A DNA stretch of 64,000 nucleotides from Burkholderiaceae bacterium (GTDB lineage Bacteria; Pseudomonadota; Gammaproteobacteria; Burkholderiales; Burkholderiaceae_E): contig JAMLIR010000002.1 of the NCBI GenBank assembly GCA_023954045.1, forward strand, positions 182,793 through 246,792, in the 5' to 3' direction. The notes beneath the pieces were generated by a model, which was given only the letters and a program-made list of their open reading frames with translations, did no database searches and was not told the DNA's origin. Shown here piece after piece: positions 21,757-43,038 of the stretch; positions within the stretch are counted from its first letter, which is position 1; the number at the start of each line of letters is the position of its first letter. The translations under genes were made by a program, and so were the position numbers.

Positions 21757-21814
21757 TGTGTCCAAGTAATTGACCATGGCGGTTTTTGGACAGCTCTATC
21801 GGTCTGCTTGGACA
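21757..21814. repeat. Left-end TGTCCAAG repeats (candidate integrase arm sites)
   Basis: TGTGTCCAAGTAA (21757-21769) in direct orientation, then TTGGACA (21786-21792) and CTTGGACA (21807-21814) in inverse orientation, all between attL and the integrase start. The 13-bp form recurs exactly at the right end (42953-42965). Such end-specific short repeats are typical of tyrosine recombinase or excisionase arm-binding sites; this is inference. Confidence 0.55.
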
Positions 21815-21827
21815 AACGGAGGTGCAC

Positions 21828-23039
21828 ATGCCGCTCAACGACAACGCACTCAAGGCGCTCAAACCCAGGGCGAAGCCGTACACCGTGACTGACGATCGCG
21901 GCCTGTACGTCGAGGTCTTTCCAACCGGCGGGATCGTCTGGCGCTGCCGTTATCGCCTGAACGGCGAGACCGAGAAGCTCACGTTGGGCAAGTACCCTGC
22001 GCTCACGCTGAAGAACGCCCGAAGGAAGCGCGACGAGGCGGCGGAGGCCGCGGCGATGGGCCAGTCGCCGGCACGCCAGAAGCAACTCGCGAAGGTGGCC
22101 GCCGCCGGAACCGCCACGGTGGCCGAGTTCGGCGAGCGCTTCTTCCGGGAGGTGGTGGCGAAGGACCGGAAGGACATCACGATCCCCCGGAGGTACTTCG
22201 ACAAGGCCATCGTGCCGGCGATCGGCGTGAAGCCCGTACGCGACGTCAGCACCGAGGACGTGCGCTCGATCATATGGAAGAAGAAAGAGGAGGGGTTCGA
22301 CGCCGCCGCCGGCCAGATCCGCGGTTTGTTGAAGCGGCTGTTCGACTACGCGATGACCGCCGGGCTGGTTTCGGTGAACCCCGTCCTGGCGCTGCCGATG
22401 CGCCATGTCCATCGGGTGAAGTCACGGGAGCGCGCACTCTCCCCAGACGAGATCCGATCGTTCCTTAAGGCAGCCTTCGAATCCAACATCCGTCGCCAGT
22501 TCAAGATCGGTCTGCACCTCATCCTGCTGACCATGGTGCGCAAGTCCGAACTGCTACTGGCCCGGTGGGAGCACGTCGACCTCGAGAAGGCGGAGTGGCA
22601 CATCCCGGCGGAGCATTCAAAGACTGGCAAGCCGCACAGCGTGTACCTGTCGCGACAGGCCGTGGCCATGCTCCGCGAGTTGAAGGCCCTGGCTGGGGGC
22701 AGCAAGCTCGTGATGCCCGGTCGAGGTAGCCTGACCAAGCCGTTCGCGCATAACGCGATCAACAACGCCCTGAAGGTGGCGCTGAAAGGCCAGGACATCC
22801 CGGCGTTCACGATCCACGATCTGCGTCGCACTGCGTCCACCCTGCTTCACGAGAACGGCTGGCCGTCCGACGTGGTCGAGAAGGCGCTGAACCACACGAT
22901 CGGCGGGGTTCGCGGGGTCTATAACCGGGCCGAGTACGAGCCGCAGCGCCGACAGATGCTGCAGTTCTGGGCGGACTACATCGAGCTGCTGGTGCAGGAT
23001 GGGCGCGTGATCATGGGGCGGTTCAAACCGGCAGCTTAA
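21828..23039 (+). CDS. P4-type tyrosine integrase
   Basis: 403-residue site-specific recombinase. It begins with the DUF4102 arm-binding domain (MPLNDNALKALKPRAKPYTVTDDRGLYVEV). A core-binding domain follows, then a catalytic domain with the first Arg in LTMVRKSELL (near 238), Lys in HSKTGKPHS, HDLRR (near 332), the second His in ALNHTIGG and nucleophile Tyr in VYNRAEY (near 367). All expected catalytic residues are present, so it appears active. The start at 21828 follows GGAGG by about seven bases. It lies 184 bp inside attL, as usual for an element-encoded integrase. Confidence 0.95.
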   Translation: MPLNDNALKALKPRAKPYTVTDDRGLYVEVFPTGGIVWRCRYRLNGETEKLTLGKYPALTLKNARRKRDEAAEAAAMGQSPARQKQLAKVAAAGTATVAEFGERFFREVVAKDRKDITIPRRYFDKAIVPAIGVKPVRDVSTEDVRSIIWKKKEEGFDAAAGQIRGLLKRLFDYAMTAGLVSVNPVLALPMRHVHRVKSRERALSPDEIRSFLKAAFESNIRRQFKIGLHLILLTMVRKSELLLARWEHVDLEKAEWHIPAEHSKTGKPHSVYLSRQAVAMLRELKALAGGSKLVMPGRGSLTKPFAHNAINNALKVALKGQDIPAFTIHDLRRTASTLLHENGWPSDVVEKALNHTIGGVRGVYNRAEYEPQRRQMLQFWADYIELLVQDGRVIMGRFKPAA

Positions 23040-23508: not shown

Positions 23509-23529
23509 GACGGACTCCTGAAGTCCGTC
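23509..23529 (-). terminator. Hairpin at the end of the defence operon
   Basis: GACGGACT-CCTGA-AGTCCGTC forms a perfect 8-bp stem that overlaps the stop codon of the DUF1998 helicase gene. No T-run follows on the minus strand. It probably stabilises or terminates the operon transcript. Confidence 0.45.
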
Positions 23530-26500
23530 ACTTGGGGCTAAACCACGAGTCATCCTCCTCAACCTCTTTGGCCTTGCCTCGACCGACCACCGCCTTGGCG
23601 ATCTTGCGCATGTGCACGCGCATCATCGACTTGTCGAAAAGCTGCTGGTAGGTGATCTCGACCACCTCGTAGTCCTTGCTGCGCAGCTCGTCGCGGATCT
23701 GCCGGTCCCGGAACATGGTCTCCGCATTGCCATGAATGTGGCCGCTCATTCCGTCGAGGTATACGCAGACGCCTTCGAACTGCTCGTTGGGCTGATGAAA
23801 GTAGACGTCGGGACGCGTGGTCACTCCGCCGGACAGCTTGATGGGCCGGTCGGTCTCGAACCCCTCCAGGCCCGCCGCTGTGAGCATCGCCCCCAGCTGA
23901 GCCTCCGCGCCGTTGGCTGGCGTCTTGCTGAGCGTATCGTCCGGCAGGACCGGCGGGATCGGGTGCGATTCCACCAGACCCGTACCCCAGTCTCGCAGGC
24001 AGTCCAGCGCCACGTGCCTGTTGAGGCTGTCGTGATAGAAGGCGTTGCGGAAGTGCTGCAAGCAGTCCACACACGACGACTCGCACGCCGAGGCGCACCC
24101 GGTCACCAGAGCGATCGCTGCCGCAACGACGTCAGACCAACGCCGGACGATCTGCTCCAGCAGCCCTGAGCCGCCGGGCATCGGGTCATAGAGCAAGCCA
24201 TCGACCTCTTCGACGCCGGGTTTGCCGAACACCAGGATCTGCAGGTCGGACATCTCCATGTCCAGAACCTCGGCAGCGCCTTGTCGCAGCGCCTCCAGCA
24301 CGCTGTAAGCCACTTCCTTCGAGGCGCACTCCGGCAAGGTCAGCGCATCGGAGACAACCTCGGCATAGAAGCTCACGAACTCGATCGGACGTCCGCACCG
24401 CTCGGTGTGGTGCTTGTTGAACTCGTCGATCTCCTTCGCATGGCTCAGGGGCGACCGGGTGTGTCCGCACACCAGACAGATCGGGTAGCCCAGCAAGCCC
24501 TGCGAACGCACCTTGGCCGCGGCGCCGACATTCACCAAGCGCATGTGCACGCCGCGCTTCAGGTGCACCGGCCGCGGCCCCCATTCAAAGGCGTAGCCCC
24601 CTCCGTGGCGGCCTTGCTCATGCCCGAAGACGGCCACGGGCATTTGGTAGCGATAGTCCTCCTCGTCAGAGATGTAGGACTGGTGAGGCGCATCGACATC
24701 ACACATGGCGATGCCGAGCAAGCCCACGGCACCGAGCGTCGACGTGGCATCCGTAGGCGCGGGTACCCCGCCGGCCTCCTGCACTGACTCCCGTGAGACG
24801 TCCACCGAGAACGCCAGCGGATCCTCCGGCTCCAGGTGGAACCGCCTTGCCACAAACTTGTGGCCGTTGGCATAGATAAGGTTGCCGGGGACGTACTCCC
24901 GGATCGCGACCGAGGTACTCCGCCGCAACTCCCAGTCCTGGATGTCGGAGCCGTAGCGCGGGGCCTCGTGCGTCACCGTGATGGCACCGGTGTCGAGTCC
25001 ATATCCGGGTAGGAATCCCTCCGCGGCCAGCACGCCATAGGTGTTGATGTCATCGACACCCTCGGCTTGGCTGGCCCGGCGCCGCGTCTCGCCCTTGAGC
25101 TTCTTCACCAAGCGCTCGCAGCGATACCGCAGCGCTTCCTCGTCGGCATCCAGCGCGCCCTTGTTCTGGGCCACCTTCTGCAGCCGATTCAATTGCCCCA
25201 AGGCCCACTGAAGGCGCGCGTACAGCCGCTTCACGACCTCCTGCAACTCGTCGCTAAGTCCCGCAACCAAACGACTGATCTGCTCGGGCGCGACGACCAC
25301 CTGATCTTCGGCGGGCCATCCCTGTCGGAACGCGGCGTGAACAGCGTCGATCAGCTGCGCCTCGTAGCGCTTGACCACCACGCCCAGCGACGAGACGTCC
25401 AGGGGCTCAGGCCGCACAAAGCCCTCGGCGGTGAAGAGGTAGGGCTTGATCAGCCGCGGGAAGCAGACGCCCAGCACTTCCTTCAGCTGCTCCAGCTCCA
25501 TGCCGGGGAGCTGCTCGTCGCGCAGCATCTTGAACAGGGCCGTCAGCACCGTGGCATGGACGTGCTTGCGCACCATGACGGCGTTGCGCAGGTTGAAGCT
25601 CGGCGGCTCCACAAGGCCCTCGAGCATCTTCAGCGGCTCGTTGAAGTAGGCCCGGTCGTGGCTGGCGGCGCGGGCATAGGTCAAGTCCAGCGCCATGCGG
25701 AACTGTCGCCCGGCCCGGCCCGCCCGTTGCCAGTAGTTCGCCGGCAGCGGCGGCACGTTGCGCATCAGCACCGCGTCCAGCGTGCCGATGTTGACGCCCA
25801 TCTCCAGGGTCGGGGTGCAGACCAGCGTGTTGATGCGCTCGTTGTCGCTCTTGAACGCGTTCTCGATCCGCTCGCGATCGGGCCCGGGAATCTGCGCCGA
25901 GTGCTCCCGCGCGCGCAGCATCGCGAACTCCTGGTCGAGCAGCAGCAGCTCGTAGCTGTCGGGGTCCTCGTCCTTCCAGGCCAAGGTGCCAGTGCACCGA
26001 TAGGCCATGCACCGCATGTTCGGCGTCGGGCGACTGTGCAGGCGCCTACAGTTGCCGCACATGTACGTGCCCTTGTGCGGTGTCAGCATCAGCCGGTCGG
26101 CGTCCACCTGGTACGCCCCTGCACAGTGCGGCAGCGGGTTGCCGCGCCCCCCTTTGAGCTGCACCGGCACCAGCAGCTTGAGCTCCTGGCTCAAGAGAGC
26201 CCACACGTCCTCGAGGAACGGCTTCACGTCATCGGGGGCCACGCCCCACGCCACCGCCGCCTGCTTGGCCGCGGTGTCGTAGTTGCTGTACCACTGCATC
26301 AGGCGCGCCTGGTCGTCCTGGCCGTCGCGCTGGAACTTGAGGCCCTTCGGAACGTCCTTCATCGATGGCAGGTAGCCCTGCATGACCTCCTTGACGCCAT
26401 CCATCCACACCTTGGAGAACGCAAGGGTCTCGCGATCGAAGAGGATCTTTCGCGACCGGGCTGCATCCAGCAGCGAAGCCACTCCCTCGGCCAGGTCCTG

Positions 26501-28927
26501 TGGCTTGCAGCCGATGCGGTGGGACCACTTCAACAGCAAGGGCAGTTCGGGGTCCAGCCCCTGGTACTGCACCTTCATCCGTCCCCACGGTTCCAGGCCG
26601 ATGCGCTGTCGCGCGCCGAGCGCCAGCTCGCGCAGCAGCTGTGCGCGAATGAACCACTTGCGCTCCCCTGCGTGGGCCTGGCTGGTCTGCGACTTCGGCA
26701 CCACCCGCCAGACCTCGGGGATCAGCGCCCGTGACAGCTCGTCGTCGGCATCCAGGAACTGGTCCAGCCACAGTGTCAGATCCCCCACGCCCACGGGCCC
26801 CTGCTTGATCTTCTTGTAAAGCAGTTCCCGCAGGCGGAAGCGGCGCGACCGGTCCTGCATCCAGCCGGCCTGGAAGGCAGCGTCCTGCCGGTTGTCGGCA
26901 AAGACGAGCAGCCGCCGCCGTTCGGCGCGATGGATCATGCTCTGCGCCAGCACATGCACGTCGGCCACCGTGGTCGCGCGCACCGGGCGTGCGGGCTCCC
27001 GGTACTGGCCGATGAAGCGCCGGCCGCTGGCGCCACAGGACACGCAGCGGGCCAAGTAGCCCGGCTGGTCCTCCTTCTGCTGCACGAAGTGCAGCGCGGC
27101 CATCGGCTTGTTGCGGCCGCACCCCACGCACTCATCAACAGGCTCGCTGTGCGCGGCACCGCAGTAGCGGCACACATACAGCGTCTGCGTCCGCGGCGGC
27201 GCGTCGTCGTCGCCGTCACTGCCCACCAGGTGGTCGAGTGACACCGCACGCATGCCGCCGTGTGCCTTGTCCATCGGGCGCCACGCGCGGACCTCGCCCT
27301 CGGCCTGTCCACCACCGGGTTCCAGCCCGGTGAAGTGGAAGTCCTCCAGCCCGTGCTCGAAGTAATGCTGGCCACAGGTGGTGCAGCTCAGCACCGGGAA
27401 CCGCTGCAGGTCATCACCTTGCGCCAGGGCATCCTCGGCCGACAACCACAGTCGTGCCTCGCGCGTCGGCTCGGGAAACGTCACCACCGCACCGCTGACC
27501 CCGCGCACGAATCCATGCACCACGGGCCGCAGCAATGGCCTCGTGTCGGTCCGGGCCGCGGCCCCAAGCGCCAGCCAAATCAGGATCTCCTCTTCGGAGA
27601 TCGCCCGGCCGAGCGCCTGCCCCAAGTCCTCCACCAGTTCGGACAGCGGGCGCGGCCGACGCAGCTTCTCGGCGATCTGGTAGACCACCTCGTTGTGGCT
27701 GAGATAGCGGTGCAGCGCGTGGCGCCAGTGGCCGTCGGTCCAGCGGGTTCCGGTCACCGTCTGGAACCAGATGCGCAGCGCCTGAATATCGGCCTCGGTG
27801 GCGTCGTCACGATCCACCTGGGTGAGGATGGCCAGCAGGTTCTGCAGGTGCAGCGCCTGGTCGCCGGCCAGGGGGCCGCTCGCCGTGCGCGGCTCGCCCC
27901 ACACGTCGGCCTCGTAGGACTCGCCGACCAGTTCCACTGCCGCGCCGTCCACGCCGAAGAACCGGCTGGCGAACAGGCGCCCCGCCTCCAGCCCCTTGAC
28001 GGGGTCGGCGATGGTGGCCGACGTGGCAATGCACGTCGTCGAGGCTTCGGTCTTGCCGCAGTACGCCCGCAGCCGGCGGATCAGGCAGGCCGTCTCGGCA
28101 CCCTGGGCACCGGAGAAGGTGTGCGCCTCGTCGAAGACGAGGTACTCCAGGCGGGCGCCGTCGAACAACTCCAGGTCCCGCTGGCGGGTCAGCAGCAGTT
28201 CCAGTTGCTTGACGTTTGTCAGCAGGATGCGCGGCTGCTTGCCCGGCGTGCGCATCTCTTCGCGAGACACGCGCTCCTCGGGCGGATGCACCGCGACGTC
28301 GAGCTTCTTCTTCTGCACGTCCGCCAGCTTGGCCCGGTAGTCGGCCGCACTGCTGCCAGCCGGCAGGCGCACGCCGACGATATCGGCCTCGGTCTGCGGC
28401 GTCTTGCCGACATACATGCCGAAGCTCACACCAGTGCCGGCCAACAGCTCGCGCATGCGCTGCAGTTGGTCCTCGGCCAGCGCATTCATCGGGTACACGA
28501 TCACGGCGGTGACGCCGGCTGGCTCGTGGGCGTCGCGTAGCGCCAAGCAGCGGCTCACGATCGGCAGCAGGAAGCACTCGGTCTTGCCCGAGCCGGTGCC
28601 GGTGGCCACCAGCGTCGTCTTGCCGGCGTGGATGGCTCGAAAGGCCTGCTCCTGGTGTCCGTAGGCCGTGGGATACGGCGACAGCTGCTTGATGTGGGGA
28701 TGCAGCACCCCTTCAGCGATCAGCTGGTCGAGGCTGGCACCCTGGCGGAACGTGCGTGACAGCGAGACGAACGGCCCCTTCAGCAGCGGCGTCGCGCGTG
28801 TGTGCTCCAGGTTCAGGAGCTTGCGCATCTGGGCATAGAGCCCTTCGTCCGCAAACGCGTAGGTGCTGAGTTGGTACCGAAGGAAGTCGCTGACGACCTG
28901 CTCGGTGTACGTGATCGGGTTCAGCAT
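23528..28927 (-). CDS. DEAD/DEAH helicase with DUF1998 and C-terminal nuclease-like domain (DrmA/DrmB- or DruE-like)
   Basis: 1799-residue protein. The superfamily 2 helicase N-terminus has Walker A ATGTGSGKT at 108-116, VIVYPMNALAEDQ (motif Ia) and DEAH at 266-269; the second lobe has TPTLEMGVNIGTLDAVLMRN and QRAGRAGR. Several zinc-ribbon Cys pairs lie in between (CTTCG, CRYCG, CVGCG, CVSCG, CGNC). The DUF1998 Cys cluster CASACESSCVDCLQHF is near 1610. The last ~110 residues (PDVYFHQP near 1704, VYLDGMSGHIH, RDRQIRDELRSKDYEVVEI) follow a Vsr/DUF559-like PD-(D/E)xK nuclease pattern. It lies 29 bases after the methyltransferase gene. DISARM class 1 normally splits helicase and DUF1998 into DrmA and DrmB; here they are one protein. 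A phage-defence role is inference. Confidence 0.8.
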   Translation of the reverse strand: MLNPITYTEQVVSDFLRYQLSTYAFADEGLYAQMRKLLNLEHTRATPLLKGPFVSLSRTFRQGASLDQLIAEGVLHPHIKQLSPYPTAYGHQEQAFRAIHAGKTTLVATGTGSGKTECFLLPIVSRCLALRDAHEPAGVTAVIVYPMNALAEDQLQRMRELLAGTGVSFGMYVGKTPQTEADIVGVRLPAGSSAADYRAKLADVQKKKLDVAVHPPEERVSREEMRTPGKQPRILLTNVKQLELLLTRQRDLELFDGARLEYLVFDEAHTFSGAQGAETACLIRRLRAYCGKTEASTTCIATSATIADPVKGLEAGRLFASRFFGVDGAAVELVGESYEADVWGEPRTASGPLAGDQALHLQNLLAILTQVDRDDATEADIQALRIWFQTVTGTRWTDGHWRHALHRYLSHNEVVYQIAEKLRRPRPLSELVEDLGQALGRAISEEEILIWLALGAAARTDTRPLLRPVVHGFVRGVSGAVVTFPEPTREARLWLSAEDALAQGDDLQRFPVLSCTTCGQHYFEHGLEDFHFTGLEPGGGQAEGEVRAWRPMDKAHGGMRAVSLDHLVGSDGDDDAPPRTQTLYVCRYCGAAHSEPVDECVGCGRNKPMAALHFVQQKEDQPGYLARCVSCGASGRRFIGQYREPARPVRATTVADVHVLAQSMIHRAERRRLLVFADNRQDAAFQAGWMQDRSRRFRLRELLYKKIKQGPVGVGDLTLWLDQFLDADDELSRALIPEVWRVVPKSQTSQAHAGERKWFIRAQLLRELALGARQRIGLEPWGRMKVQYQGLDPELPLLLKWSHRIGCKPQDLAEGVASLLDAARSRKILFDRETLAFSKVWMDGVKEVMQGYLPSMKDVPKGLKFQRDGQDDQARLMQWYSNYDTAAKQAAVAWGVAPDDVKPFLEDVWALLSQELKLLVPVQLKGGRGNPLPHCAGAYQVDADRLMLTPHKGTYMCGNCRRLHSRPTPNMRCMAYRCTGTLAWKDEDPDSYELLLLDQEFAMLRAREHSAQIPGPDRERIENAFKSDNERINTLVCTPTLEMGVNIGTLDAVLMRNVPPLPANYWQRAGRAGRQFRMALDLTYARAASHDRAYFNEPLKMLEGLVEPPSFNLRNAVMVRKHVHATVLTALFKMLRDEQLPGMELEQLKEVLGVCFPRLIKPYLFTAEGFVRPEPLDVSSLGVVVKRYEAQLIDAVHAAFRQGWPAEDQVVVAPEQISRLVAGLSDELQEVVKRLYARLQWALGQLNRLQKVAQNKGALDADEEALRYRCERLVKKLKGETRRRASQAEGVDDINTYGVLAAEGFLPGYGLDTGAITVTHEAPRYGSDIQDWELRRSTSVAIREYVPGNLIYANGHKFVARRFHLEPEDPLAFSVDVSRESVQEAGGVPAPTDATSTLGAVGLLGIAMCDVDAPHQSYISDEEDYRYQMPVAVFGHEQGRHGGGYAFEWGPRPVHLKRGVHMRLVNVGAAAKVRSQGLLGYPICLVCGHTRSPLSHAKEIDEFNKHHTERCGRPIEFVSFYAEVVSDALTLPECASKEVAYSVLEALRQGAAEVLDMEMSDLQILVFGKPGVEEVDGLLYDPMPGGSGLLEQIVRRWSDVVAAAIALVTGCASACESSCVDCLQHFRNAFYHDSLNRHVALDCLRDWGTGLVESHPIPPVLPDDTLSKTPANGAEAQLGAMLTAAGLEGFETDRPIKLSGGVTTRPDVYFHQPNEQFEGVCVYLDGMSGHIHGNAETMFRDRQIRDELRSKDYEVVEITYQQLFDKSMMRVHMRKIAKAVVGRGKAKEVEEDDSWFSPK

Positions 28928-28956
28928 GTTGTTGTTGGCTCCCTGTGCTCGACTTG

Positions 28957-31900
28957 CTAGAACAGCCCAGACTGATAACCCACTTCCGGCCGTCGTACAC
29001 CGTCAGCCGGCGGGTCGTCATCCCGACTCGCGTACTTGACCGCTTCGACCGGGACCAGCTGCTTCACGATCGCCGCATGCGCCGCACACTCTTGCCAGGA
29101 CCGCGATACGTCCTCGTTCACCTGCCAGTCGAAGAGTCGCGGACCAAACTGTGATGCAACGGGATGATGCTCTCGTGATCTGGCGTCCCGGCCCAGCGCA
29201 AAGTCGCCAAGACAGAGCTGCTCCGGTATCAACCATCCGTCACCCTGGTTCTGGCTCAAGAAGCCCTCCAGGCCCTTGTCCTGCAGATCGCAAAAGGCGA
29301 CAAAGGCAAGCACTGGGTGGCGAAGCTCTGGTTGGAGATCCTTGTCTGTTCGCCAGAAGCCCTTTGGGTTCAAGGCTTTGGCAGCCTCACCCGTGAGGCG
29401 TTCGACAGGAAGGTCGCAGTCGGCAATGACTTGCCGGAAGTCATGGTCAGAGAGCCCCAGCGTTGTGGCGATCAGGGCGTCATTGATGGCCTGTAGCCTT
29501 CGCCGCTCATGGACGGTCAACGCGAACGACCGCCGCCATCCACGATCTTCCGAACGGAAGGGCAGCCATTGCGCGGCGAATACTTGGTGAGGCAGGCTCA
29601 GACGAATGCTGTTGAGTGCCGCTGCCTGCATCGTCACCTGATCCAGAGACGGCAGGGGCGTCTCCGCCAGGATGAAGTAGTTCAGGTTCAGGCCACCAAG
29701 CCTGGTCCGCAAGGCGAAGTCGTAGGCGAACGAGTTGAGCGCTGCGATCAGTGCCAACGTCCGCTCTGGTGTCGTCGACTGGAGGACCGCCACTGAGTTT
29801 CCCGCCGGGAAGCCAGCGACGGGGCCGGAGAACATCGAACGACTGTTGGTCGCCGATCCGACCGCCAAGTAGCCAGCCTTCAACCCTACGAGGGACTTCG
29901 TCGCCTCGGCAAGCGCTGAGAGGTAGCTACCCCGTCCCATGAGGTACTGCGGATCCAGCTGCTTCTGGCCGAGCGGCTGGTCTCGCCAGTCGGCCTTGCG
30001 CCCCTTCCCGCTCACCCACCCCTTCTCGCTGAAGTCGAACTGGCCGATCATCCGCCCCTCATAGAGCGGCAGCGCCACGTCCTCGATCTGCTCGACGTGG
30101 ATGGCCTGCCGGCCATCGCGCGACAGCACCAGCCCCTCCGGCCGCTCCAGGATGTGTGCCGGCCCGCTGTAGTCGCGCCACGACCCCTTCAGCCAGTGCC
30201 CGTACTCGTCCGGCTGGTAGCCCTTGGCCTCCCACTTCGGCCGCTCGGGGAACAGCTTGGAGTCGTTGGTCATGTGGAACTCGGTGGCGTACTTGACGCC
30301 CCAGCCGCGTTCGCTCTGATCGCCCAGCAGCACGCCGTTGGCGTAGATCTTCTGCAGCACCTTCAGGTCCTGCTCGGTGCGGATCTCGAGGATGGCCTTG
30401 GAGTACGGCGAGAACTCGATCACCCGCTCGCGCGGGTAGGCCATCACGTGGCCCTCCGCGTGGTTCCAGTCGTCCACGTCGCGGTGCATGAAGGCCGCGC
30501 GGATGGCCTGGGTCTGGCCGCCCTTCTGCACGATCACCGGGCAGAACTTGAACCGCGAGTCGATGTCGAAGACCTTCTCACGGTTCTCGAAGCCGAACAG
30601 CCACTGCCAGTCGCAGCGGTCGAGCAGCAACGTGCGCAGCGCCGTCGAGCCCTTGTCGGTGTACAGGCCGCTGGGCGTGATCATGCCCAGGCGCCCGGCC
30701 GGCTTCAGCAGCGCGTGGCTCAGCTCCATGAACATCTTGTAGGTGTTCAGGTCGGCCGAGCCCTGGTGCAGGAAGGGGTGGGCGCGGTCGGCATAGCTGG
30801 CGCGCTGCTGCCGGCGGGCACGCCACTTGTCGTGCAGGCGCTTGGAGACCGCGAAGCTGTCGCGCCCGCGCCCGCCGAGGTTGATCTCGTGCTTCTCGTT
30901 GCCGTTGTTGTCGCGGTAGACCTTGTCGCCGAACGGGTGGCCCACGCATTTCACCCAGTTCGACATCGCCTTCAGCGCGGCGTTGTAGCGCAGCCAGGCC
31001 TCCTCGATCTGGGCTGAGCCGGTGAAGTAATCGACCTGCTTGCCCAGCGCCTCCTGCTTGCCGTAGGCGCGGTACAGCGGGTCGATGTTGGAGAAGAACT
31101 CCTTGGAGTTCGGCTTCTGGATCTCCCACGGCGGGTTGCCCAGCACGGCGTCGAAACCGCTGCGCTGGGGCGTGAAGACATCGGGGAACTCCAGCTCCCA
31201 GTGGAAGAAGCGACGTGCCTGCGCCACCCGGGCCGCCGTGTCCAGCGCCTGCGCCGACGGCGTGCCGAACTGGCTGGGCAGCGGCGCCACGTCCACCTCG
31301 TCGCCGGGCCAGAACCACAGCGCGCACCAGAGGTCGAGCCGGGCCTTGAGCGCGTGGTAGTGCGGGTTGGACAGCACCTGCTCCTGGTAGAGCCGCGCAC
31401 GCGCCTCGGTGTCGTGCACCGGCAGCTGGTGCAGCCGGTCGAACACCGCCACCAGCTCGGCATGCACACCCGTGGCCAGCGTGGCGTCGCCCAGCCGGAG
31501 CTGGCCGTTCAGCTCGGCGATGAGCTCCTGCTGCACCTGGGAGCGGCAGGCCTTGATGGCGGCCGTCCACACGTCGCCCTGCTTCTCGGTGCGGCCGGCG
31601 TTCCGTCCACGCGTGGCGGTAACCGTGTGGAAGTGGTGGACGAAGCGCTCGTGGTTGCCATCGCCACCTTCGCGTTCCCAGGCCATGGCCGGGTACTCCT
31701 GGAAGGTGTCGAACCAGGCACCGACCAGCCCGTTGCCGACCTTGAGCTTGTGGTCGAGGAAACCGAAGGGCAGGCTGCGGTCCATGGTCTCGACCCACAG
31801 CGCCATGCGCCCGAGTTCGACGGCCAGCGGGTCGATGTCGACGCCGTAGATGCAGCGCTCGACGATGTGGCGCTTCAGACGCGCGCGCAACGCGTCCTCG

Positions 31901-34056
31901 AAAGCCTCGTGATCGGGGGGGAACGGCAGCAGTTCGCTGCCCAGGCCCTCGGCAGCCTGCCCGTCGGCCAGCCGGGCCACGGCGCCGTCCTGCTGCCGCT
32001 CAATGCGGCCGTGGAAGTACAGCGACTGCACCAGCGCATCGACCAGAAAACGCAGGCTGCCCGCGAGAAAAGAGCCCGAACCCATGGCCGGGTCGCAGAT
32101 CTTCAGCGCGAGGATGTCCTCCGGCCGCCTGGGGCGCCAGGCGGTCACTTCCACCAGCCCCGTGGCCGGGTTCGTCTCGGTGCTCGCCGGCTCGAAGGCC
32201 AGAGCTTGCAAGGTGCGGCGCACCGTGGGTGCCGCCAGTTGGGGCCGCGTGTAGAAGGTGCCCGCGCCCTTGCGGGTGCCGCCCCAGCGCACCAGATAGA
32301 ACTGCCCCGGCGCCACCAAGCGGGCGCAGAGCTGCCGGCCCGCACGGCGGCGGGCTTCTTCGTACTCGGCCCCCATCGTGGCCGCCCGGCCGCGGGGGCG
32401 CTTAACGAGGCCGGCCACCTCGGCGGCACGTTCCAGCCAGGTCTGTGCGCGCAGCAGGTGGTCGGTAGGTTCGGTGTCGATGTCGGCGGCGTCATCGGCC
32501 GCGGCGGTTTCGTCGACGACCTCTTCGTCGACGTCGGTCTCGTCGGCGTCGGGCCCCTCGGCCTCGGCTTCATCGGCGCCATCCTCGCCAGCGTCGTCAT
32601 CGCCTTCGGTAGCGGCTGGCCCCTTGTCCTTCTTCTTCAGTTCATCGAAGAGCTGCTTGATCGCCTTGTCGTCCATCGCCTCCAGCCGAGACAGCGGCAG
32701 AGCCGGCTCACGGCCCACGCCGAGAAAGACGATGGGGTCGTCGCCGTCGGCTTGCTTGAGCTCGAAGTCCAGCAGGCCTTCGTACAGGATGCCGATGTAC
32801 TCGGAGGACAGCGCCGAGAAGTCCACGGGGCCATCCACCCACATGCCGCGGCGGCCCTGCCGCACCTTGACCTTGGTTCGCGTCAACAGGCGCAGGATGT
32901 GATGCACCTGCTTGTCGGAGATGGCGTTTGACGGGCTTTCCAGCAGCGCCAGCGCGCGGTCGACGCCCGTGCGCTCGGTGGCGCTGCCGGGTTCGAACAG
33001 GGCGCCGCCGTACTGCGGCACCGGCAGCGCCTCGTGTGCCGAACCCTGATGGATCAGGTTGAACAGCGCCATCAGGCGTGGCCAGGCACTGCACCCCTGC
33101 GACAGGCGCTCGCTGCCACGGCCGCCCGAGCGGCGGTCAAGCTGCTGGCGCAGGCCGTCGAGACTGTAGGACTGTTGATAGATGCGGTTGTCGACCGGCA
33201 GCAGCCCGCGCGCTTCGGCGAAGAAAGTGATGATGCAGCGCATCACGATGCGGGTGCCAGCGCGGTACAGGTCGGCGTAGTCGACCTGGGTGCCCTGCTG
33301 GGTCACGGCCTCGATGGCGGCGTGCGATGCGGTGATGAGCTCCTCAACGGCCTGGCGGACGCGCTCGCCGAGGACAGCGGACAGCTCGGCCTGGCCCTTG
33401 CGCGAGTCCAGCACCGCGCCGAGCAACAAGCCGGGTGCACCCGGTTTCGGCGCCAGCAGCGCGTCGCGGGTTAGCAATTGACGCCAAGCCAGCACCTGCG
33501 CGGACGGCTGGCCCTCCTCGAACCAGAGGTCGATGTCCCACTCGCACCACGCGTCGTAGTCGCCGCCGGCATGCATCAGCCGCCACTGACGGCCGTTGGT
33601 CACCAGCGCGAGCGGCTGGTTGAGCCTGCGCAGCCACTCCACCACCCGGCTGAGCAGCTTGCGTGAGCGCCCGACGCCGAGCCTGGCCCCGGCGTGACGG
33701 GACACACCCCCCTCCGGCACGAAGACTGGCAGCGTCTCGCCGTTCGGCCCCAGCCAGAGCCGGCGCGGCTTGACCAGCTCGCCCGTGAAGCTGCGGAAAG
33801 CCCAGCGGCTCTCGACTTGAGGGCCTTTCTGCCACTCCTGTTCAGGCAGGCTGGACAGCGACTCCAGCACATGGTCCAGCAGCGGGGAGAGGGCTTCGTC
33901 GGTGCCGTCGAAGCGGGTCAGCTCTCGGCGCAGCTGGTCCGCGGCAAAACCTGAGAGCGGTGCCAGCGGCGCGGCAAAGACCTCCTGGATCTTGCGTGGG
34001 GCGATCAGCAGACCGCCATGGTTGAGGGACGACCACCAGTCCAGCACCGGGTTCAT
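28957..34056 (-). CDS. Large Eco57I/PglX-like N6-adenine DNA methyltransferase
   Basis: 1699-residue protein. The AdoMet-binding motif DPAMGSGSFL lies near residue 650 and the catalytic NPPWE near 975, in the order of gamma/Eco57I-type N6-adenine methylases. The N-terminal ~350 residues include NGRQWRLMHAGGDYDAWCEWD, resembling the N-terminal domain of PglX/type II G enzymes. An acidic, low-complexity linker (about 485-540, Asp/Glu/Ala-rich) precedes the catalytic core. The C-terminal region (GYLAVGSATNSRSMFSG, LNSFAYDFALRTRLGGLNLN) looks like a target-recognition domain. The start overlaps the upstream SNF2 helicase stop as ATGA. It is longer than typical PglX (about 1200 residues). It probably marks host DNA and takes part in defence (inference). 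Confidence 0.85.
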   Translation of the reverse strand: MNPVLDWWSSLNHGGLLIAPRKIQEVFAAPLAPLSGFAADQLRRELTRFDGTDEALSPLLDHVLESLSSLPEQEWQKGPQVESRWAFRSFTGELVKPRRLWLGPNGETLPVFVPEGGVSRHAGARLGVGRSRKLLSRVVEWLRRLNQPLALVTNGRQWRLMHAGGDYDAWCEWDIDLWFEEGQPSAQVLAWRQLLTRDALLAPKPGAPGLLLGAVLDSRKGQAELSAVLGERVRQAVEELITASHAAIEAVTQQGTQVDYADLYRAGTRIVMRCIITFFAEARGLLPVDNRIYQQSYSLDGLRQQLDRRSGGRGSERLSQGCSAWPRLMALFNLIHQGSAHEALPVPQYGGALFEPGSATERTGVDRALALLESPSNAISDKQVHHILRLLTRTKVKVRQGRRGMWVDGPVDFSALSSEYIGILYEGLLDFELKQADGDDPIVFLGVGREPALPLSRLEAMDDKAIKQLFDELKKKDKGPAATEGDDDAGEDGADEAEAEGPDADETDVDEEVVDETAAADDAADIDTEPTDHLLRAQTWLERAAEVAGLVKRPRGRAATMGAEYEEARRRAGRQLCARLVAPGQFYLVRWGGTRKGAGTFYTRPQLAAPTVRRTLQALAFEPASTETNPATGLVEVTAWRPRRPEDILALKICDPAMGSGSFLAGSLRFLVDALVQSLYFHGRIERQQDGAVARLADGQAAEGLGSELLPFPPDHEAFEDALRARLKRHIVERCIYGVDIDPLAVELGRMALWVETMDRSLPFGFLDHKLKVGNGLVGAWFDTFQEYPAMAWEREGGDGNHERFVHHFHTVTATRGRNAGRTEKQGDVWTAAIKACRSQVQQELIAELNGQLRLGDATLATGVHAELVAVFDRLHQLPVHDTEARARLYQEQVLSNPHYHALKARLDLWCALWFWPGDEVDVAPLPSQFGTPSAQALDTAARVAQARRFFHWELEFPDVFTPQRSGFDAVLGNPPWEIQKPNSKEFFSNIDPLYRAYGKQEALGKQVDYFTGSAQIEEAWLRYNAALKAMSNWVKCVGHPFGDKVYRDNNGNEKHEINLGGRGRDSFAVSKRLHDKWRARRQQRASYADRAHPFLHQGSADLNTYKMFMELSHALLKPAGRLGMITPSGLYTDKGSTALRTLLLDRCDWQWLFGFENREKVFDIDSRFKFCPVIVQKGGQTQAIRAAFMHRDVDDWNHAEGHVMAYPRERVIEFSPYSKAILEIRTEQDLKVLQKIYANGVLLGDQSERGWGVKYATEFHMTNDSKLFPERPKWEAKGYQPDEYGHWLKGSWRDYSGPAHILERPEGLVLSRDGRQAIHVEQIEDVALPLYEGRMIGQFDFSEKGWVSGKGRKADWRDQPLGQKQLDPQYLMGRGSYLSALAEATKSLVGLKAGYLAVGSATNSRSMFSGPVAGFPAGNSVAVLQSTTPERTLALIAALNSFAYDFALRTRLGGLNLNYFILAETPLPSLDQVTMQAAALNSIRLSLPHQVFAAQWLPFRSEDRGWRRSFALTVHERRRLQAINDALIATTLGLSDHDFRQVIADCDLPVERLTGEAAKALNPKGFWRTDKDLQPELRHPVLAFVAFCDLQDKGLEGFLSQNQGDGWLIPEQLCLGDFALGRDARSREHHPVASQFGPRLFDWQVNEDVSRSWQECAAHAAIVKQLVPVEAVKYASRDDDPPADGVRRPEVGYQSGLF

Positions 34057-37000
34057 GCGCCTGCTCCCGGGAAACGGATTTCGACGGTGAGCGGGAAGAC
34101 CTGCGCATCGCTTCTGAGGCTGTAGCGCAGCGGCACGACACGGTCGAGGATGCGCGCCTTCTCGCTCTTCAGGCGCTCCAGCAGATCGCCGAACTGGCCG
34201 GTGCGGCGTTTCAGCTCGTCTTGCAGGTCACGCAGCTCGCGTGCGGCGCGCTCGTCGGCGTCCTCCAGCAGATCGAGCTGCAGCGACGCCGAGCGGCGTT
34301 CCTCGATCTCGCGCCGCAGCTTGTCGAGGCTTTGGTCGCGCTGGAGCGCGGCTACTTCATTGATGCGCCGTTCGAACGCCTCCTTCTCGTGGAGGCGCGC
34401 CGCCGTGCCGACCTCGACCAGGTGACCCCGGATGGACTCCGTCAGCCGGGCCCGGTAGCCCTTGATCAGGTTTCGGACTTCGACGTCGATGTCGTCCCAC
34501 AGCTGGCGCGCAGCCTCGACGCGGTGCGACGCCAGCGCCGCCGAAGCTGCACCGTGGTGTGGTCCGGCGTACGGCAAGGCCTCGCCCAGGTCGCCGCCGT
34601 TCACGGGGAACACCAGCGTTCGCACCCAGTGATGCAGGGTCTCACGCAGCTCATTGACTGCCATCTCCTCGACCGTTAGCAGCACCAGGGCCCGCGCTCC
34701 GGAAGGCACGACGCCCTCGCTAACCGTCCAGCGGCTCGGAGCGATTCCATCGGACTGGCCACCCGGAAAACGCAGCCGTGCGAACGACGCGAGAGCGTGG
34801 CGCAGCACGGGATGCCCCAGGTGGAGCAAGACCGTGTCCGGCGAAGGCCGGAACACCGGTCGCCCATGGATGTGTTCGATGAAGAACTGGTTGTCGAACA
34901 CCAGCCAAGGGAGCGCGCCGACCGCGCCGCGCGCACCCGGGAGGCGCAAGCCGTCCTCGATGACCGGCTTCCAGCGCGGCGGCACCGGAGCGACCAGCCG
35001 CATGCGGCCACGCGCATCGGGACCCTCCAGCACTTGTCGACCCGCACCGACACCCATGGCCACCTGCAGCGTCTGCTTGAGCGTATCGGGAGTGAGGTCG
35101 AGATCGACGAGCAGCTGCCGGAAGCGTGCCTGCTCGGCGACGCCGCGCTCCTCGGTCTGGACTTGGGCATCCTTCGCCGCGTTGCGGCGTACGGCGACTT
35201 GCTGGTCGAGCTGGACGAGGACGTCCTGGTCTTCCTGCAGCTCGAGCATCCTGCGCTGGAAGGCGGCATTGAACAACTCTGCGACAGACCCCAGATCCTC
35301 GCGGATGTCGTTGACCTTGCCGATGACGCGCGATACGAAACGCAGATCGGCATCGTCGTCACTGGCGAAGTGGAAGACCGTGACGTCACGGGCCTGACCG
35401 TGGCGGTCGATACGGCCGTTGCGCTGCTCCAGCCTCGACGGGTTCCACGGGATATCGAAGTGCAGCAGCAGCCGCGCGGTGTGCTGCAGGTTCAGGCCCT
35501 CCGAAGCGGCATCGGTGGCCACCAGCACGCGAACCGGTGACTGTGGGTCGTTGAACGCGGCCTTGACGGCCTCGCGCTCAGCCTCTTGCATGCCGCCATA
35601 GAGGACGGCGATTCGGCCTTCTGAGGCGCTGAACTCGGAAGCGCAGCGCTGCACGATGTAGTCCAGCGTGGTCTTGTACTCGGTGAAGATGATCAACCGT
35701 TCGTCGTCGACCCACTCGTCGGCGTTGCGCAGGCGCTGACCGATCAGTTCGGACAAGCGCTGAAAGCGCGCGTCCGATGCGGGAACCAGTCGTGTGACCG
35801 GCAGAGCATTGAGCTTCAGCGCGGCGAGGCAGGCGTCGACATCAGCGATCTCGCCTGCAAGAGCATTCGCATAACGGTGGATCCACGCACCCACGACCTT
35901 CGCCGCGTGGTGTCCGCGGCTCTCACGCTCCTGGTCGTCGTCGATGTCCTCCTCGGTAGCGCGGCGCGCCGATGCGACCTCCGTGGCTTCAGGCTGCTGA
36001 GCATCAGCCAGCCCCGCCTTGAAGCGAAGCCAGGTGTCGGCGAACGTAACGGGACTGGAGAGCAATCGCTTGCGGAAGATCTCGATCGCGAAGTTCAGGA
36101 CGGCTCTTACCTCGGGTGTCGTACGGATCAGCTGCTTCAGACTGATGCAGAAATCGCGAACGGCCCGGTTGAGCTCCTTCTCGGCCTTGAGCATGTAAAG
36201 AGGCAGAGGCTCGAGGTGCCGATTTGCAAACCTGGGCGGACGGCCCGCGGACTTGTCTTGCGCGTTGATCTCGCTCTTCAGCCGGCGGATGAGCACGTCG
36301 CCGATCATCTGGCGCTCTTTGGCCGTGAACTGCGGTGTGCGCGTGAAGCGGACAGGGTCGAGCTGCTCGAGCAAGCCAGAGAAGCAGCGCGTGTAGCCGT
36401 TGTGCGGCGTGGCGGTGAGGAACAGGCGATGCTCGAACCAGGGTGTAAGGCGCCGCAGCATGTCCGCCAGGTCGCTGTCTTCACCGAAGTTCGAGGGCAT
36501 CAGGTTATGGGCCTCGTCGACGATGAGCAGATCCCAGGGCAACTGCGCTGACGCTCGAGCGTCATGCGAGGCGCGACAAGTCGCCTCGAACTGCTCCAGC
36601 ACGTCAGGCTGCCGGAGGTAGTGGTAGGACGTGATGATCCGTGGCAGCGCGCGCCAAGGATTGACGTCCAGGCCAAACTCGCGCTGGAGCTTGTGGGTAG
36701 CGGTCTTGTCGACGATGTCGAAGCCGAGCGAGAACTTGTCTTCCATCTCGGACTGCCACTGCTGTCGAAGCGAGGCTGGCGTGAGGATCAGGACGCGTCG
36801 AATCCGCCGTTTGCGGATGAGCTCAGCCAGGATCAAGCCCGCTTCGATGGTCTTGCCCAGGCCCACGTCATCCGCGAGCAGGATCGAGACACGCGGCATC
36901 TTCATCGCGCGTGCCAGGGGAACCATCTGGAAGTCGTCTGCGCTCACGGCGCCGTACACCGGAGCGGTTGGCACTGGTTCACTCAGGCGAGTGGGCGAGG

Positions 37001-37313
37001 CCGCTGCCAGAAAAGGGGTGATTGCGCTCCAGCGTGTGGCACGCTGCAACGCCAGGAAGTCGCTCGGCGCCATCGGCGCCTCAACATCAACCCGAGGCAG
37101 CGCGTTCGGCTCCAGCAACTCGGGCTGGCACTCGCGCTCCCACAGCAGCACCTCTTCAGCGCCGCCGTCATGGTCCGAATACTCGACCGTCACCAAGTGC
37201 AGCAGCTTTGACGTGTGCGGCTCTTCAAAGGGCTCCACGGAGGTGACGACGCCGCGGCGGGATCTGACGGTGGCAAGCATGCCGATGCGGGGCACCAAGA
37301 CATCTGAGGGCAT
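34053..37313 (-). CDS. SNF2-family helicase (DrmD/HepA-like)
   Basis: 1086-residue SWI2/SNF2 ATPase. Walker A ADDVGLGKTI is at about 147-156, DEAH at 266-269, FLTATPHNG motif III near 300 and the second-lobe VLVATDAASEGLNLQ with QRNGRIDRHGQ motif VI near 600. The C-terminal ~350 residues are charged and partly coiled-coil (LRELRDLQDELKRR). The start at 37313 begins MPSDVLVPRIGMLATV; the longer upstream frame is low-quality. It is the first gene of the three-gene operon and overlaps the methyltransferase gene by four bases. In DISARM class 1 a SNF2 helicase (DrmD) followed by a methylase (DrmMI) occupies these positions. Confidence 0.87.
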   Translation of the reverse strand: MPSDVLVPRIGMLATVRSRRGVVTSVEPFEEPHTSKLLHLVTVEYSDHDGGAEEVLLWERECQPELLEPNALPRVDVEAPMAPSDFLALQRATRWSAITPFLAAASPTRLSEPVPTAPVYGAVSADDFQMVPLARAMKMPRVSILLADDVGLGKTIEAGLILAELIRKRRIRRVLILTPASLRQQWQSEMEDKFSLGFDIVDKTATHKLQREFGLDVNPWRALPRIITSYHYLRQPDVLEQFEATCRASHDARASAQLPWDLLIVDEAHNLMPSNFGEDSDLADMLRRLTPWFEHRLFLTATPHNGYTRCFSGLLEQLDPVRFTRTPQFTAKERQMIGDVLIRRLKSEINAQDKSAGRPPRFANRHLEPLPLYMLKAEKELNRAVRDFCISLKQLIRTTPEVRAVLNFAIEIFRKRLLSSPVTFADTWLRFKAGLADAQQPEATEVASARRATEEDIDDDQERESRGHHAAKVVGAWIHRYANALAGEIADVDACLAALKLNALPVTRLVPASDARFQRLSELIGQRLRNADEWVDDERLIIFTEYKTTLDYIVQRCASEFSASEGRIAVLYGGMQEAEREAVKAAFNDPQSPVRVLVATDAASEGLNLQHTARLLLHFDIPWNPSRLEQRNGRIDRHGQARDVTVFHFASDDDADLRFVSRVIGKVNDIREDLGSVAELFNAAFQRRMLELQEDQDVLVQLDQQVAVRRNAAKDAQVQTEERGVAEQARFRQLLVDLDLTPDTLKQTLQVAMGVGAGRQVLEGPDARGRMRLVAPVPPRWKPVIEDGLRLPGARGAVGALPWLVFDNQFFIEHIHGRPVFRPSPDTVLLHLGHPVLRHALASFARLRFPGGQSDGIAPSRWTVSEGVVPSGARALVLLTVEEMAVNELRETLHHWVRTLVFPVNGGDLGEALPYAGPHHGAASAALASHRVEAARQLWDDIDVEVRNLIKGYRARLTESIRGHLVEVGTAARLHEKEAFERRINEVAALQRDQSLDKLRREIEERRSASLQLDLLEDADERAARELRDLQDELKRRTGQFGDLLERLKSEKARILDRVVPLRYSLRSDAQVFPLTVEIRFPGAGA

Positions 37314-37368: not shown

Positions 37369-37635
37369 TCAATGTCGATACTGCGCGGCGGCAGATTCCA
37401 GACGGCCAGAGACCGCTGAAACCAGCGACGGGGGCGACAGAACAGTGACCTGGTCGCCCTGGCGGAGGATGTCCATCGCAATCTCGGTTTCGTCGGCGTA
37501 GGGTGTCGGCGCCGATCCAATTCTGAGCCACCGTGCCGACTCGATGCCCGAGCCGGCGCAGGCGATCAGCTGAAGGTTTCCGGCGACGTGGTTGATCGCC
37601 TGGCGTTGGGCGAAGGTGAACTTCGGTCCGGTCAA
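37369..37635 (-). pseudogene. UvrD-start/WYL-end chimeric remnant
   Basis: 88-codon frame. Residues 1-30 (FTFAQRQAINHV, IACAGSG) read like the Q motif and the beginning of Walker A of a UvrD-type helicase, but the Lys/Thr of the Walker motif are missing. From about residue 35 (ARWLRIGSAPTPYADE, then ILRQGDQVTVLSPPSLV) it reads like the C-terminal end of a WYL-domain regulator. This suggests a deletion that fused the first codons of one gene to the end of another. The start is TTG at 37635, overlapping the ribbon-helix-helix gene stop as TTGA. It may still be translated, but its function is doubtful. Confidence 0.5.
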
Positions 37636-37883
37636 GAGACGATCTCCTCAGGCTGCCGTCTGCCCGCGGACCGGTCTTCTGCCCTTCTCGGGCGCCGCGG
37701 CATCGGCGGCGACGCCGCCGATGCGTCCGGAATCCGGATGCCGTGCACGCGACAGTAGTCGCGGATGAGCCCCTCGACCATGTTCGAGATCGACCGGTGC
37801 TCGCCCTCGGCGGCGACGCGAAGGGCGTCCTTGAACGCGGGCTCGACGCGCAGCGTGAGCGTACTGGTCTTTGCTGGGGCCAT
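37632..37883 (-). CDS. Ribbon-helix-helix (Arc/CopG-type) DNA-binding protein
   Basis: 83-residue protein from the ATG at 37883 (an in-frame ATG at 37895 is also possible). It begins with a strand TLTLRVEP, followed by helices KDALRVAAEGEHRSISNMVEGLIRDYC, the pattern of ribbon-helix-helix repressors that bind as dimers. The tail is basic and Pro-rich. It lies upstream of the defence operon on the same strand and opposite AlpA, so it may repress one or both divergent transcripts (inference). Confidence 0.7.
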   Translation of the reverse strand: MAPAKTSTLTLRVEPAFKDALRVAAEGEHRSISNMVEGLIRDYCRVHGIRIPDASAASPPMPRRPRRAEDRSAGRRQPEEIVS

Positions 37884-38067
37884 GGCTATGCCCATTCAGC
37901 GCTTGTAGTGCAGGTGTACCGCAATGTACAGCGAAGGCCTTGGGGCTCCAACGGAACTCTGAATCGGGTGAAGAAACCCGGCGACGGGTGGACGAAGTCG
38001 GGGAAACAACGGGAAATATATGCAGCCATGTTCCCGGACAGGCCGGGGACGTCCATCGGAGACGAAC
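37884..38067. promoter_or_regulatory. Divergent control region of the element
   Basis: 184-bp noncoding gap between the minus-strand regulator/defence block and the plus-strand AlpA module. Both transcripts must begin here. I see no convincing -35/-10 pair or strong palindrome by eye. The AlpA ribosome site GGAG is about eight bases before 38068. Confidence 0.5.
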
Positions 38068-38334
38068 ATGGCAACCGAAGTTCTCGATGACTCCGCGCTC
38101 TGCCGGCGTAAGGCAGTCGAAGCGACGACCGGTTTTCCGAGGTCGACACTCTATGACCGAATCGCGAAGCGGCTGTTTACGAGGCCCGTATCCCTGGGTG
38201 GTCGCGCAAAGGGTTGGCCCCGCCGGGAGGTCAAAGCGCTGAACGAGGCGCGCATCGCAGGGAAGTCGGACGGGGAGATCCGGGAACTGGTCGAGCGTCT
38301 CGAGGCTGCGCGCACCGCGGCCCCTTCCGAGTGA
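38068..38334 (+). CDS. AlpA-family regulator / excisionase-like protein
   Basis: 88-residue protein with a MerR-like helix-turn-helix of the AlpA type: CRRKAVEATTGFPRSTLYDRIAKRLFTRPVSLGGRAKGWPRREV. AlpA-like proteins of P4-type elements activate excision or integrase expression. The start at 38068 gives the normal length. It opens the plus-strand module, seven bases before the next gene, and would partner the P4-type integrase at the left end. Confidence 0.82.
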   Translation: MATEVLDDSALCRRKAVEATTGFPRSTLYDRIAKRLFTRPVSLGGRAKGWPRREVKALNEARIAGKSDGEIRELVERLEAARTAAPSE

Positions 38335-38341
38335 GGCCGGC

Positions 38342-38665
38342 ATGACGGATCGGACACACGAACGAAAGCAGGCTGAGTCAACCACCGAAACCCCTCAAAC
38401 CACCAATGCCGAGTTTCTGGCGGGGATCTTCGCTGACCTGCGGGACGGCGAGCGGCCAATCGTGCTCGGCGTCCGAGGACGGAGCGCCGGCAAAGGTTGG
38501 CTCCCCTGCCTTCCCGTAGACGAGCAGGGGGCGAACTGGTACTTCGCGCCGTCGGCTCGAGTGGGCCGACTACCATGCGACGTCAATGGAAGCATGACCA
38601 GCCCATTCGCTGACGGCTCGCGGAGTGGCACTCCGAGAGGCGATACAGCGTGGACGAGATCGTGA
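38342..38665 (+). CDS. Short N-terminal primase-like fragment
   Basis: 107-residue protein. Residues 20-72 (NAEFLAGIFADLRDGERPIV to ANWYFAPSA) resemble the N-terminal segment of plasmid or phage primase-like replication proteins. The remaining 35 residues are polar and look unconserved, as if the conserved frame were lost. It overlaps the next gene by 16 bases. It may be a frameshifted N-terminus of that gene or a genuine small protein; I cannot tell. Confidence 0.5.
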   Translation: MTDRTHERKQAESTTETPQTTNAEFLAGIFADLRDGERPIVLGVRGRSAGKGWLPCLPVDEQGANWYFAPSARVGRLPCDVNGSMTSPFADGSRSGTPRGDTAWTRS

Positions 38666-40922: not shown

Positions 40923-40935
40923 TGAGGTGAGCGAC

Positions 40936-43020: not shown

Positions 43021-43038
43021 TTCTGCATCGGGAAATGA
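43021..43038 (+). repeat. attR direct repeat (displaced original mnmE 3' end)
   Basis: TTCTGCATCGGGAAATGA encodes FCIGK-stop in frame, the ancestral mnmE end that the element displaced. The GC-rich codon choice (TTC, GGG) suits the host better than the attL copy (TTT, GGA). Four bases later the next chromosomal gene starts. Confidence 0.88.

Follow-up and report, generated by a model that had tools for sequence, protein, structure and literature searches.

A three-gene SNF2 helicase, methylase and YprA helicase operon with affinities to ARMADA and DISARM in a Burkholderiaceae bacterium

The window analyzed here is a 64,000 nt stretch of contig JAMLIR010000002.1 (positions 182,793–246,792, assembly GCA_023954045.1) from a Burkholderiaceae bacterium. 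It contains an operon of three minus-strand genes that encode proteins of 1086, 1699 and 1799 amino acids (aa), termed ArmA, ArmB and ArmC after the components of the ARMADA system (Table 1). By PADLOC, Pfam and NCBIfam models, a PglX-like methylase and a RapA/BrxHII-like helicase share this one operon. All three frames are intact and have no internal stops. The first two genes have a 4-base overlap and the third lies 29 bases beyond, in agreement with a prior reading made from the letters alone (here the sequence-only reading), which had described three large minus-strand genes with an ATGA overlap and a 29 bp spacing. The length of ArmA is counted from an ATG; the open frame from a TTG at position 37520 represents 1155 aa. 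Characteristic motifs are intact in the three proteins (DVGLGKT, DEAH and QRNGRIDR in ArmA, DPAMGSGS and NPPW in ArmB, TGTGSGKT, DEAH and QRAGRAGR in ArmC). The Pfam MZB (DUF1998) score of ArmC is 41.5 bits against a cut-off of 24.2, which keeps the protein within the DUF1998 helicases and places a YprA-like helicase and DUF1998 in a single chain.

ARMADA, as presented in a 2025 preprint (PMC12458937), consists of the RapA/BrxHII-like ArmA, the PglX-like ArmB and the YprA-like ArmC, which ends in a Vsr-type nuclease; Type II adds ArmD, which is RelE-like plus UvrD/GajB-like. The Type II system of E. coli protected against 13 of 80 phages and all four genes were needed; the experiments considered here are on Type II only. 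The window operon shares with ARMADA the SNF2 helicase, the PglX-like methylase and the fused YprA/DUF1998 protein with a putatively Vsr-like C-terminus, without ArmD. Among the features of the family are BrxA-like and MarR-like domains inserted in ArmC. The genes follow one another as in Type II (SNF2 - methylase - YprA), whose ArmC in E. coli has 2113 aa compared with 1799 aa here. Absence of ArmD from a set of three genes is a property of Type I, but there YprA is usually the first gene. Searches of the window by tblastn at E 1e-3 gave no match for ArmD (three queries), for DrmC (two queries), for DrmA plus DrmB from three DISARM systems, or for DruH, DruA, DruB, DruC, McrB, McrC, S24 and WYL proteins (one query each). 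The sequence-only reading had also stated that DrmC is missing.

Affinities of the three proteins

Reference systems for the comparisons were fetched with their neighbouring genes and labelled from gene order and neighbours. Three of them (L034, L186 and L187) were called Druantia-like, and no DruA or DruH was found beside them. No BRIGADE or TALON reference could be identified with certainty among halophile plasmids and Chloroflexota, where both were sought, and the trees do not contain them by name.

ArmA scores 640.6 bits with the NCBIfam model DISARM_DrmD (cut-off 610) and 647 bits with DrmD in PADLOC. With the NCBIfam model, three proteins of the window clade give 641, 645 and 666 bits, compared with 296–379 bits for five ARMADA I/II proteins and 1241 and 1367 bits for two DISARM proteins. 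In a tree of 35 SNF2 rows (five near-copies left out) rooted with RapA, a long branch, the window clade groups with DISARM DrmD with support of 100/100. A joining of the clade to ARMADA I and II is rejected (p 0.004), as is a joining to ARMADA II alone (p 6e-6). All such p-values are optimistic, as the approximately unbiased tests were set after the trees were seen. Under a mixture model with five further near-copies left out (30 rows), the DISARM grouping has 99/98 support and the ARMADA join has p 0.027. BLAST comparisons agree: all 13 clade SNF2 rows are best with DISARM, with a mean of 405 bits vs 255 for ARMADA I and 227 for ARMADA II. The sequence-only reading had proposed a DISARM/Hma-like variant. 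The DISARM relation of the cassette is supported; Hma is rejected on the PADLOC scores of the SNF2 protein (HmaA 225 bits, DrmD 647 bits).

ArmB appears as a mosaic. Its highest PADLOC score is with the Type IIG model REase_MTase_IIG (PDLC03622, 2035 bits), and DrmMI gives 434 bits over residues 6–988. Residues 1–575 are best with DISARM in all 15 clade members (mean 126 bits vs 63 for ARMADA I and 42 for ARMADA II), and residues 1000–1699 are best with ARMADA I in all 15 (mean 149 bits vs 43 for ARMADA II and 15 for DISARM). The middle part is split, being best with ARMADA I in ten members and with DISARM in five. Separate unrooted trees of the two parts (32 rows each, twelve near-copies left out) place the N-terminal part with DISARM (100/99.9; an ARMADA I join instead has p 0.002) and the C-terminal part apart from DISARM (100/100), on the ARMADA side. 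A Paraburkholderia plasmid (L038) carries an operon in the ARMADA Type I order whose methylase has a DrmMI score of 697 bits and a C-terminal part that groups with DISARM; exchange between the families runs in the opposite direction too.

ArmC is of a different affinity. The best PADLOC models are those of DruE (384 bits, partial) vs 56 bits for DrmA, and across the clade ArmC has a mean score of 398 bits with ARMADA I, compared with 56 bits for DrmA plus DrmB of DISARM. A SNF2 helicase and a methylase are present instead of the other Druantia genes. The ArmC tree has 53 rows, with six near-copies left out; truncated or frameshifted proteins (L012, L024, L025, L027, L028 and L029) were left out before the trees, and L013, on a contig that stops shortly after an unusual ArmC end, was left out of row sets A2 and A4. 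The window clade (17 rows, 100/100), ARMADA II (7 rows, 100/100), ARMADA I including the reversed order (11 rows, 100/100, or 98/97 with one further protein) and a group of Druantia, Chloroflexota and other YprA proteins (12 rows, 100/99) are each recovered. The clade lies outside the sampled references of ARMADA I, ARMADA II and Druantia, and the mutual order of the groups is left open. A first tree had placed the clade below Druantia and both ARMADA types (96/96); with more rows this order opened, and a basal position is not claimed. An assignment to the reversed-order form of Type I was rejected, since the five reversed-order references group with Type I and away from the window clade. The fusion of helicase and DUF1998 that the sequence-only reading had recognized is borne out by the DEAD and MZB matches; it is a protein of the ARMADA/Druantia branch and not a fusion of DrmA with DrmB.

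The C-terminal 137 residues of ArmC are likely a Vsr-type nuclease. The residues E, PD, YLDG, HG, D and R are invariant in 14 of 14 rows, and a profile comparison with a Vsr protein has these motifs in register (29% over 80 columns, E 0.004), with a probability of just 8%. The segment has no Pfam match, and against the PDB set its sole match up to E 10 is a weak one to the mobile-intron nuclease 3r3p (E 0.085). A model of residues 1480–1799, the last 320, has a mean predicted local distance difference test score (pLDDT) of 82 and a predicted template modeling score of 0.45. Its best match is the DUF1998 helicase MrfA (E 6.6e-4), followed by weak matches to an R2 element protein (E 0.011) and to TnsA (E 0.18). 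These findings are in line with the nuclease activity that the sequence-only reading had supposed for the fused C-terminus.

Relatives and the fourth part

When one genome from each of 84,980 species was scanned for sequence patterns, 58 stretches were obtained, of which 28 contain a relative, with 50–79% identity in the best segment. This count is too low because the scan requires exact short peptides. By record titles, the hosts include Beta- and Gammaproteobacteria, cyanobacteria, Gemmatimonadota, Planctomycetota, Chloroflexota and others. All three genes are present in 18 of the 28 relatives, each time in the order A-B-C and on one strand. In eight further relatives the methylase is upstream of ArmC, and in two (L010 and L027) ArmC is alone. 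A sample of 300 genomes from the order of the window bacterium gave 21 matches at E 1e-20, which are its own and 20 with more distant YprA proteins only. An IMG/VR contig (L214) carries a relative; of the seven loci found, it is the one that belongs to the window lineage by best match. A cyanobacterial genome (L199/L205) has a broken ArmC of this lineage in several pieces. In eight loci (L011, L017, L020, L025, L026, L028, L029 and plasmid L031), unrelated cargo is found between ArmB and ArmC and differs among all loci inspected, e.g., a kinase-helicase and a PLD-like protein in L011, an AbiEi/AbiEii-type pair in L017 and a large TPR protein in L020.

The ArmC end is readable in 23 relatives. 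ArmD is downstream of it in five (L011, L014, L023, L029 and L030); Pfam UvrD was found in the two that were tested, and a RelE-like HigB match, below the cut-off, in one. In ten others (L004, L006, L008, L009, L015–L018, L020 and L022) a C-terminal S24 peptidase domain is fused to ArmC, as confirmed by Pfam in both relatives tested. Eight have neither part, two of which (L007 and L013) have less than 200 bases downstream and six more than 2 kb. The two parts are never together (0 of 23), and the window copy has neither. A mutual exclusion of ArmD and S24 beyond chance is unsupported on the tree (3 and 2 changes, with no informative pairs).

SMEP, YTxK and an Ala-Gly are retained in all ten S24 tails and correspond to the Ser-Lys pair and the cleavage site of LexA and UmuD. 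The tails may undergo RecA-triggered self-cleavage. No account of an S24 domain fused to a YprA helicase was found in the main text of PMC12458937 or in a limited literature search. McrB-like and McrC-like genes are directly downstream of the S24-fused ArmC in L004, L006 and L016 (Pfam McrBC and AAA_5 in L006), and a DISARM-like system associated with McrBC has been described (PMC11090510).

Interpretation and alternative explanations

The favoured reading, with a probability of roughly 0.7, takes the operon for a restriction-like antiphage system of the ARMADA kind, carried as cargo by a satellite-like element. It would fall in neither Type I nor Type II as these were sampled and would join a DISARM-type front to an ARMADA-type back. 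The front looks to comprise the SNF2 helicase plus the N-terminal third of ArmB, and the back the C-terminal part of ArmB plus the YprA helicase, on the ARMADA/Druantia side. A junction of this type is preferred because of the mosaic methylase together with the SNF2 result. Relative to the ARMADA I and II references, the operon belongs to a separate, rare lineage. By analogy it probably protects its bacterium from viruses.

A more far-reaching proposal is that the lineage represents a third ARMADA type with the seam in the methylase gene and an exchangeable fourth part. This is tentative, at somewhat less than even odds, which are slightly reduced by the test of the methylase C-terminal part against ARMADA I and by the whole-length ArmB tree, as both blur the seam. 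If true, a DISARM-type recognition module would feed an ARMADA-type helicase-nuclease, and the fourth part would be ArmD, a nuclease-fused self-cleaving S24 domain of the LexA/UmuD type, or nothing. RecA-coated single strands would then switch the nuclease via the S24 domain.

A mechanism may be proposed from studied relatives. ArmB would methylate adenines and so mark host DNA as self. ArmA would translocate on and survey DNA and, with ArmB, discern unmarked incoming DNA. ArmC would load on an exposed 3' single strand and unwind it, and its C-terminal Vsr-type nuclease would cut the DNA. The antiphage action and the need for the ATPase and methylase motifs are inferred from E. coli ARMADA II, where motif mutants of ArmA, ArmB and ArmC are reported (PMC12458937), and the loading on a 3' tail from DruE (PMC13192584). 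The methylated motif, the trigger and the sufficiency of three genes without ArmD are matters of inference only.

Several points weigh against the favoured reading. The DrmD scores of the clade are barely above the cut-off and far under those of real DISARM proteins. For the ArmB C-terminal part, a join to ARMADA I without the other types is rejected (p 3e-6), since the ARMADA I row L038 has a DISARM-like C-terminal part, and the C-terminal parts of DISARM methylases hardly align. In the whole-length ArmB tree (eight near-copies left out) the clade leans to ARMADA II (85/99.7), and a DISARM join is not rejected (p 0.19). An exchange of the target-recognition part alone could explain the seam in the methylase. 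Joins of ArmC are not rejected with ARMADA I (p 0.50), with both types (p 0.45) or with ARMADA II (p 0.056). ArmD, essential in E. coli ARMADA II (PMC12458937), is absent from the window, the upstream regulator is reduced to a scrap, and the antiphage role is by analogy only.

The ArmC joins, the lean of whole-length ArmB, the Type II gene order and the five relatives with ArmD would also fit a deep or odd branch within the types of the preprint, either Type I with a reversed order or Type II with the same order and a lost ArmD. This is less likely: joins of the SNF2 protein with ARMADA II or with both types are rejected, and the ArmC clade is outside the rows of both Type I (11) and Type II (7). 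The operon could instead be a decayed island copy that formerly worked and is no longer protective, having lost its regulator and fourth part. The WCX remnant upstream of ArmA and the lack of both ArmD and S24 point this way. However, all three genes keep open frames and complete motifs, and both parts are also lacking in the six relatives with more than 2 kb downstream, which makes decay rather improbable. A true DISARM system with DrmA and DrmB fused and DrmC lost is very improbable. It would explain the passed DrmD cut-off and the DISARM-like methylase N-terminal part, but the helicase is of the other branch by its bit scores, and the DrmA plus DrmB rows match nothing in the window; plain DISARM, with its separate DrmA and DrmB, was rejected on the same grounds and for want of a detectable DrmC. 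Least probable of all is that ArmB, in keeping with its top PADLOC label, is a stand-alone Type IIG restriction enzyme and that the helicases next to it are unrelated, since the cassette is kept in 18 of 28 relatives, ArmB of E. coli ARMADA II is likewise labelled IIG (934 bits), and the N-terminal 580 residues have no nuclease fold match in a model of modest confidence (pLDDT 73).

The favoured reading bears on how these systems are built. DISARM, ARMADA and Druantia share parts, and a lineage with a DISARM front and an ARMADA back links two of them, shows which parts are exchangeable and indicates where the seam may lie. In such a compact three-gene system, recognition and killing become testable through swaps. 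The S24-fused relatives suggest a link between the SOS response and restriction-like defence. There is also a practical consequence in that current models mislabel the operon, the first gene as DrmD and the second as Type IIG.

Carrier element and neighbouring features

An element of some 21.4 kb, located at the 3' end of mnmE and bounded by two mnmE-type ends (Table 1), contains the operon. The sequence-only reading had placed the operon in an integrated element, which is upheld by the tyrosine integrase adjoining mnmE and the second FCIGK-stop end. The two attachment copies are identical at 13 of 18 bases and both encode FCIGK-stop; the right copy is identical at 18 of 18 bases to the mnmE end of a congener. 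By bases alone the match is weak, as the 15-base mnmE end is matched with up to 4 mismatches at three sites from 23 kb to 64 kb, and the assignment is made on the FCIGK-stop codons and the match to the congener. The element appears to be phage-satellite-like because it carries an integrase, an AlpA-like protein, a primase-type protein and a terminase small subunit, and the operon would be its cargo. ARMADA II has been described on satellite-like elements at tRNA genes (PMC12458937), and mnmE (trmE, thdF) is among the sites where islands are known to occur (PMC7449626). Integrase-like sequence follows mnmE in two of four congeners read (L210 and L213), and mnmE looks like a recurrent insertion site within the genus.

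Table 1. Features of the operon and its carrier element (window positions)
Feature	Positions	Strand	Basis and remarks
Left attachment sequence	21626..21643	+	Last 18 bases of mnmE; sequence
Tyrosine integrase	21786..23039	+	403 aa from ATG at 21828; Pfam Phage_integrase, Arm-DNA-bind_3; PHROGs integrase
ArmC, YprA/DUF1998 helicase, ARMADA/Druantia branch	23528..28927	-	1799 aa; Pfam DEAD, Helicase_C, MZB; trees
ArmC C-terminal 137 residues, likely Vsr-type (PD-(D/E)xK) nuclease domain	23531..23941	-	Conserved motif; weak Vsr and 3r3p matches
ArmB, PglX-like adenine methylase	28957..34056	-	1699 aa; Pfam Eco57I; PADLOC PDLC03622, DrmMI
ArmA/DrmD-like SNF2 (RapA-type) helicase	34053..37313	-	1086 aa, first gene of the operon; NCBIfam DISARM_DrmD; Pfam SNF2-rel_dom, Helicase_C
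88-aa open reading frame, WCX end (C-terminal domain of WYL regulators)	37369..37635	-	Pfam WCX E 4.5e-6
Small ribbon-helix-helix-like protein	37632..37895	-	Weak sub-cut-off Pfam and PHROGs matches
AlpA-like excisionase/regulator	38020..38334	+	Pfam Phage_AlpA E 2.3e-8; phrog_66
Primase/replication-type protein	38650..40578	+	642 aa; phrog_29234 (unknown function) E 3.7e-95; phrog_19930 DNA polymerase/primase E 1.4e-18; no Pfam match above cut-off
Phage terminase small subunit	40927..41433	+	Pfam Sf6_terminase E 7e-41; phrog_1482
Right attachment sequence	43021..43038	+	Second FCIGK-stop end

The 88-aa open reading frame just upstream of ArmA appears by its WCX match to be a remnant of a WYL-type regulator. 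Whole WYL genes are upstream of ArmA in L004 and L016, and also in L009, where the gene is divergent. A UvrD-like start of the same frame (E 0.12) is not claimed. A relative of the small ribbon-helix-helix-like protein is upstream of ArmA in L023. An open reading frame of 114 aa at window positions 40578–40922 has a match to the TubC_N docking domain (Pfam E 1.9e-8), which is unexpected for a satellite-like element. Outside the element, a match to the Rfam family AsdA (antisense of dnaA) is found at positions 16757–16837 (+), opposite a minus-strand gene at 15944–17443, with 54 bits against a cut-off of 52.

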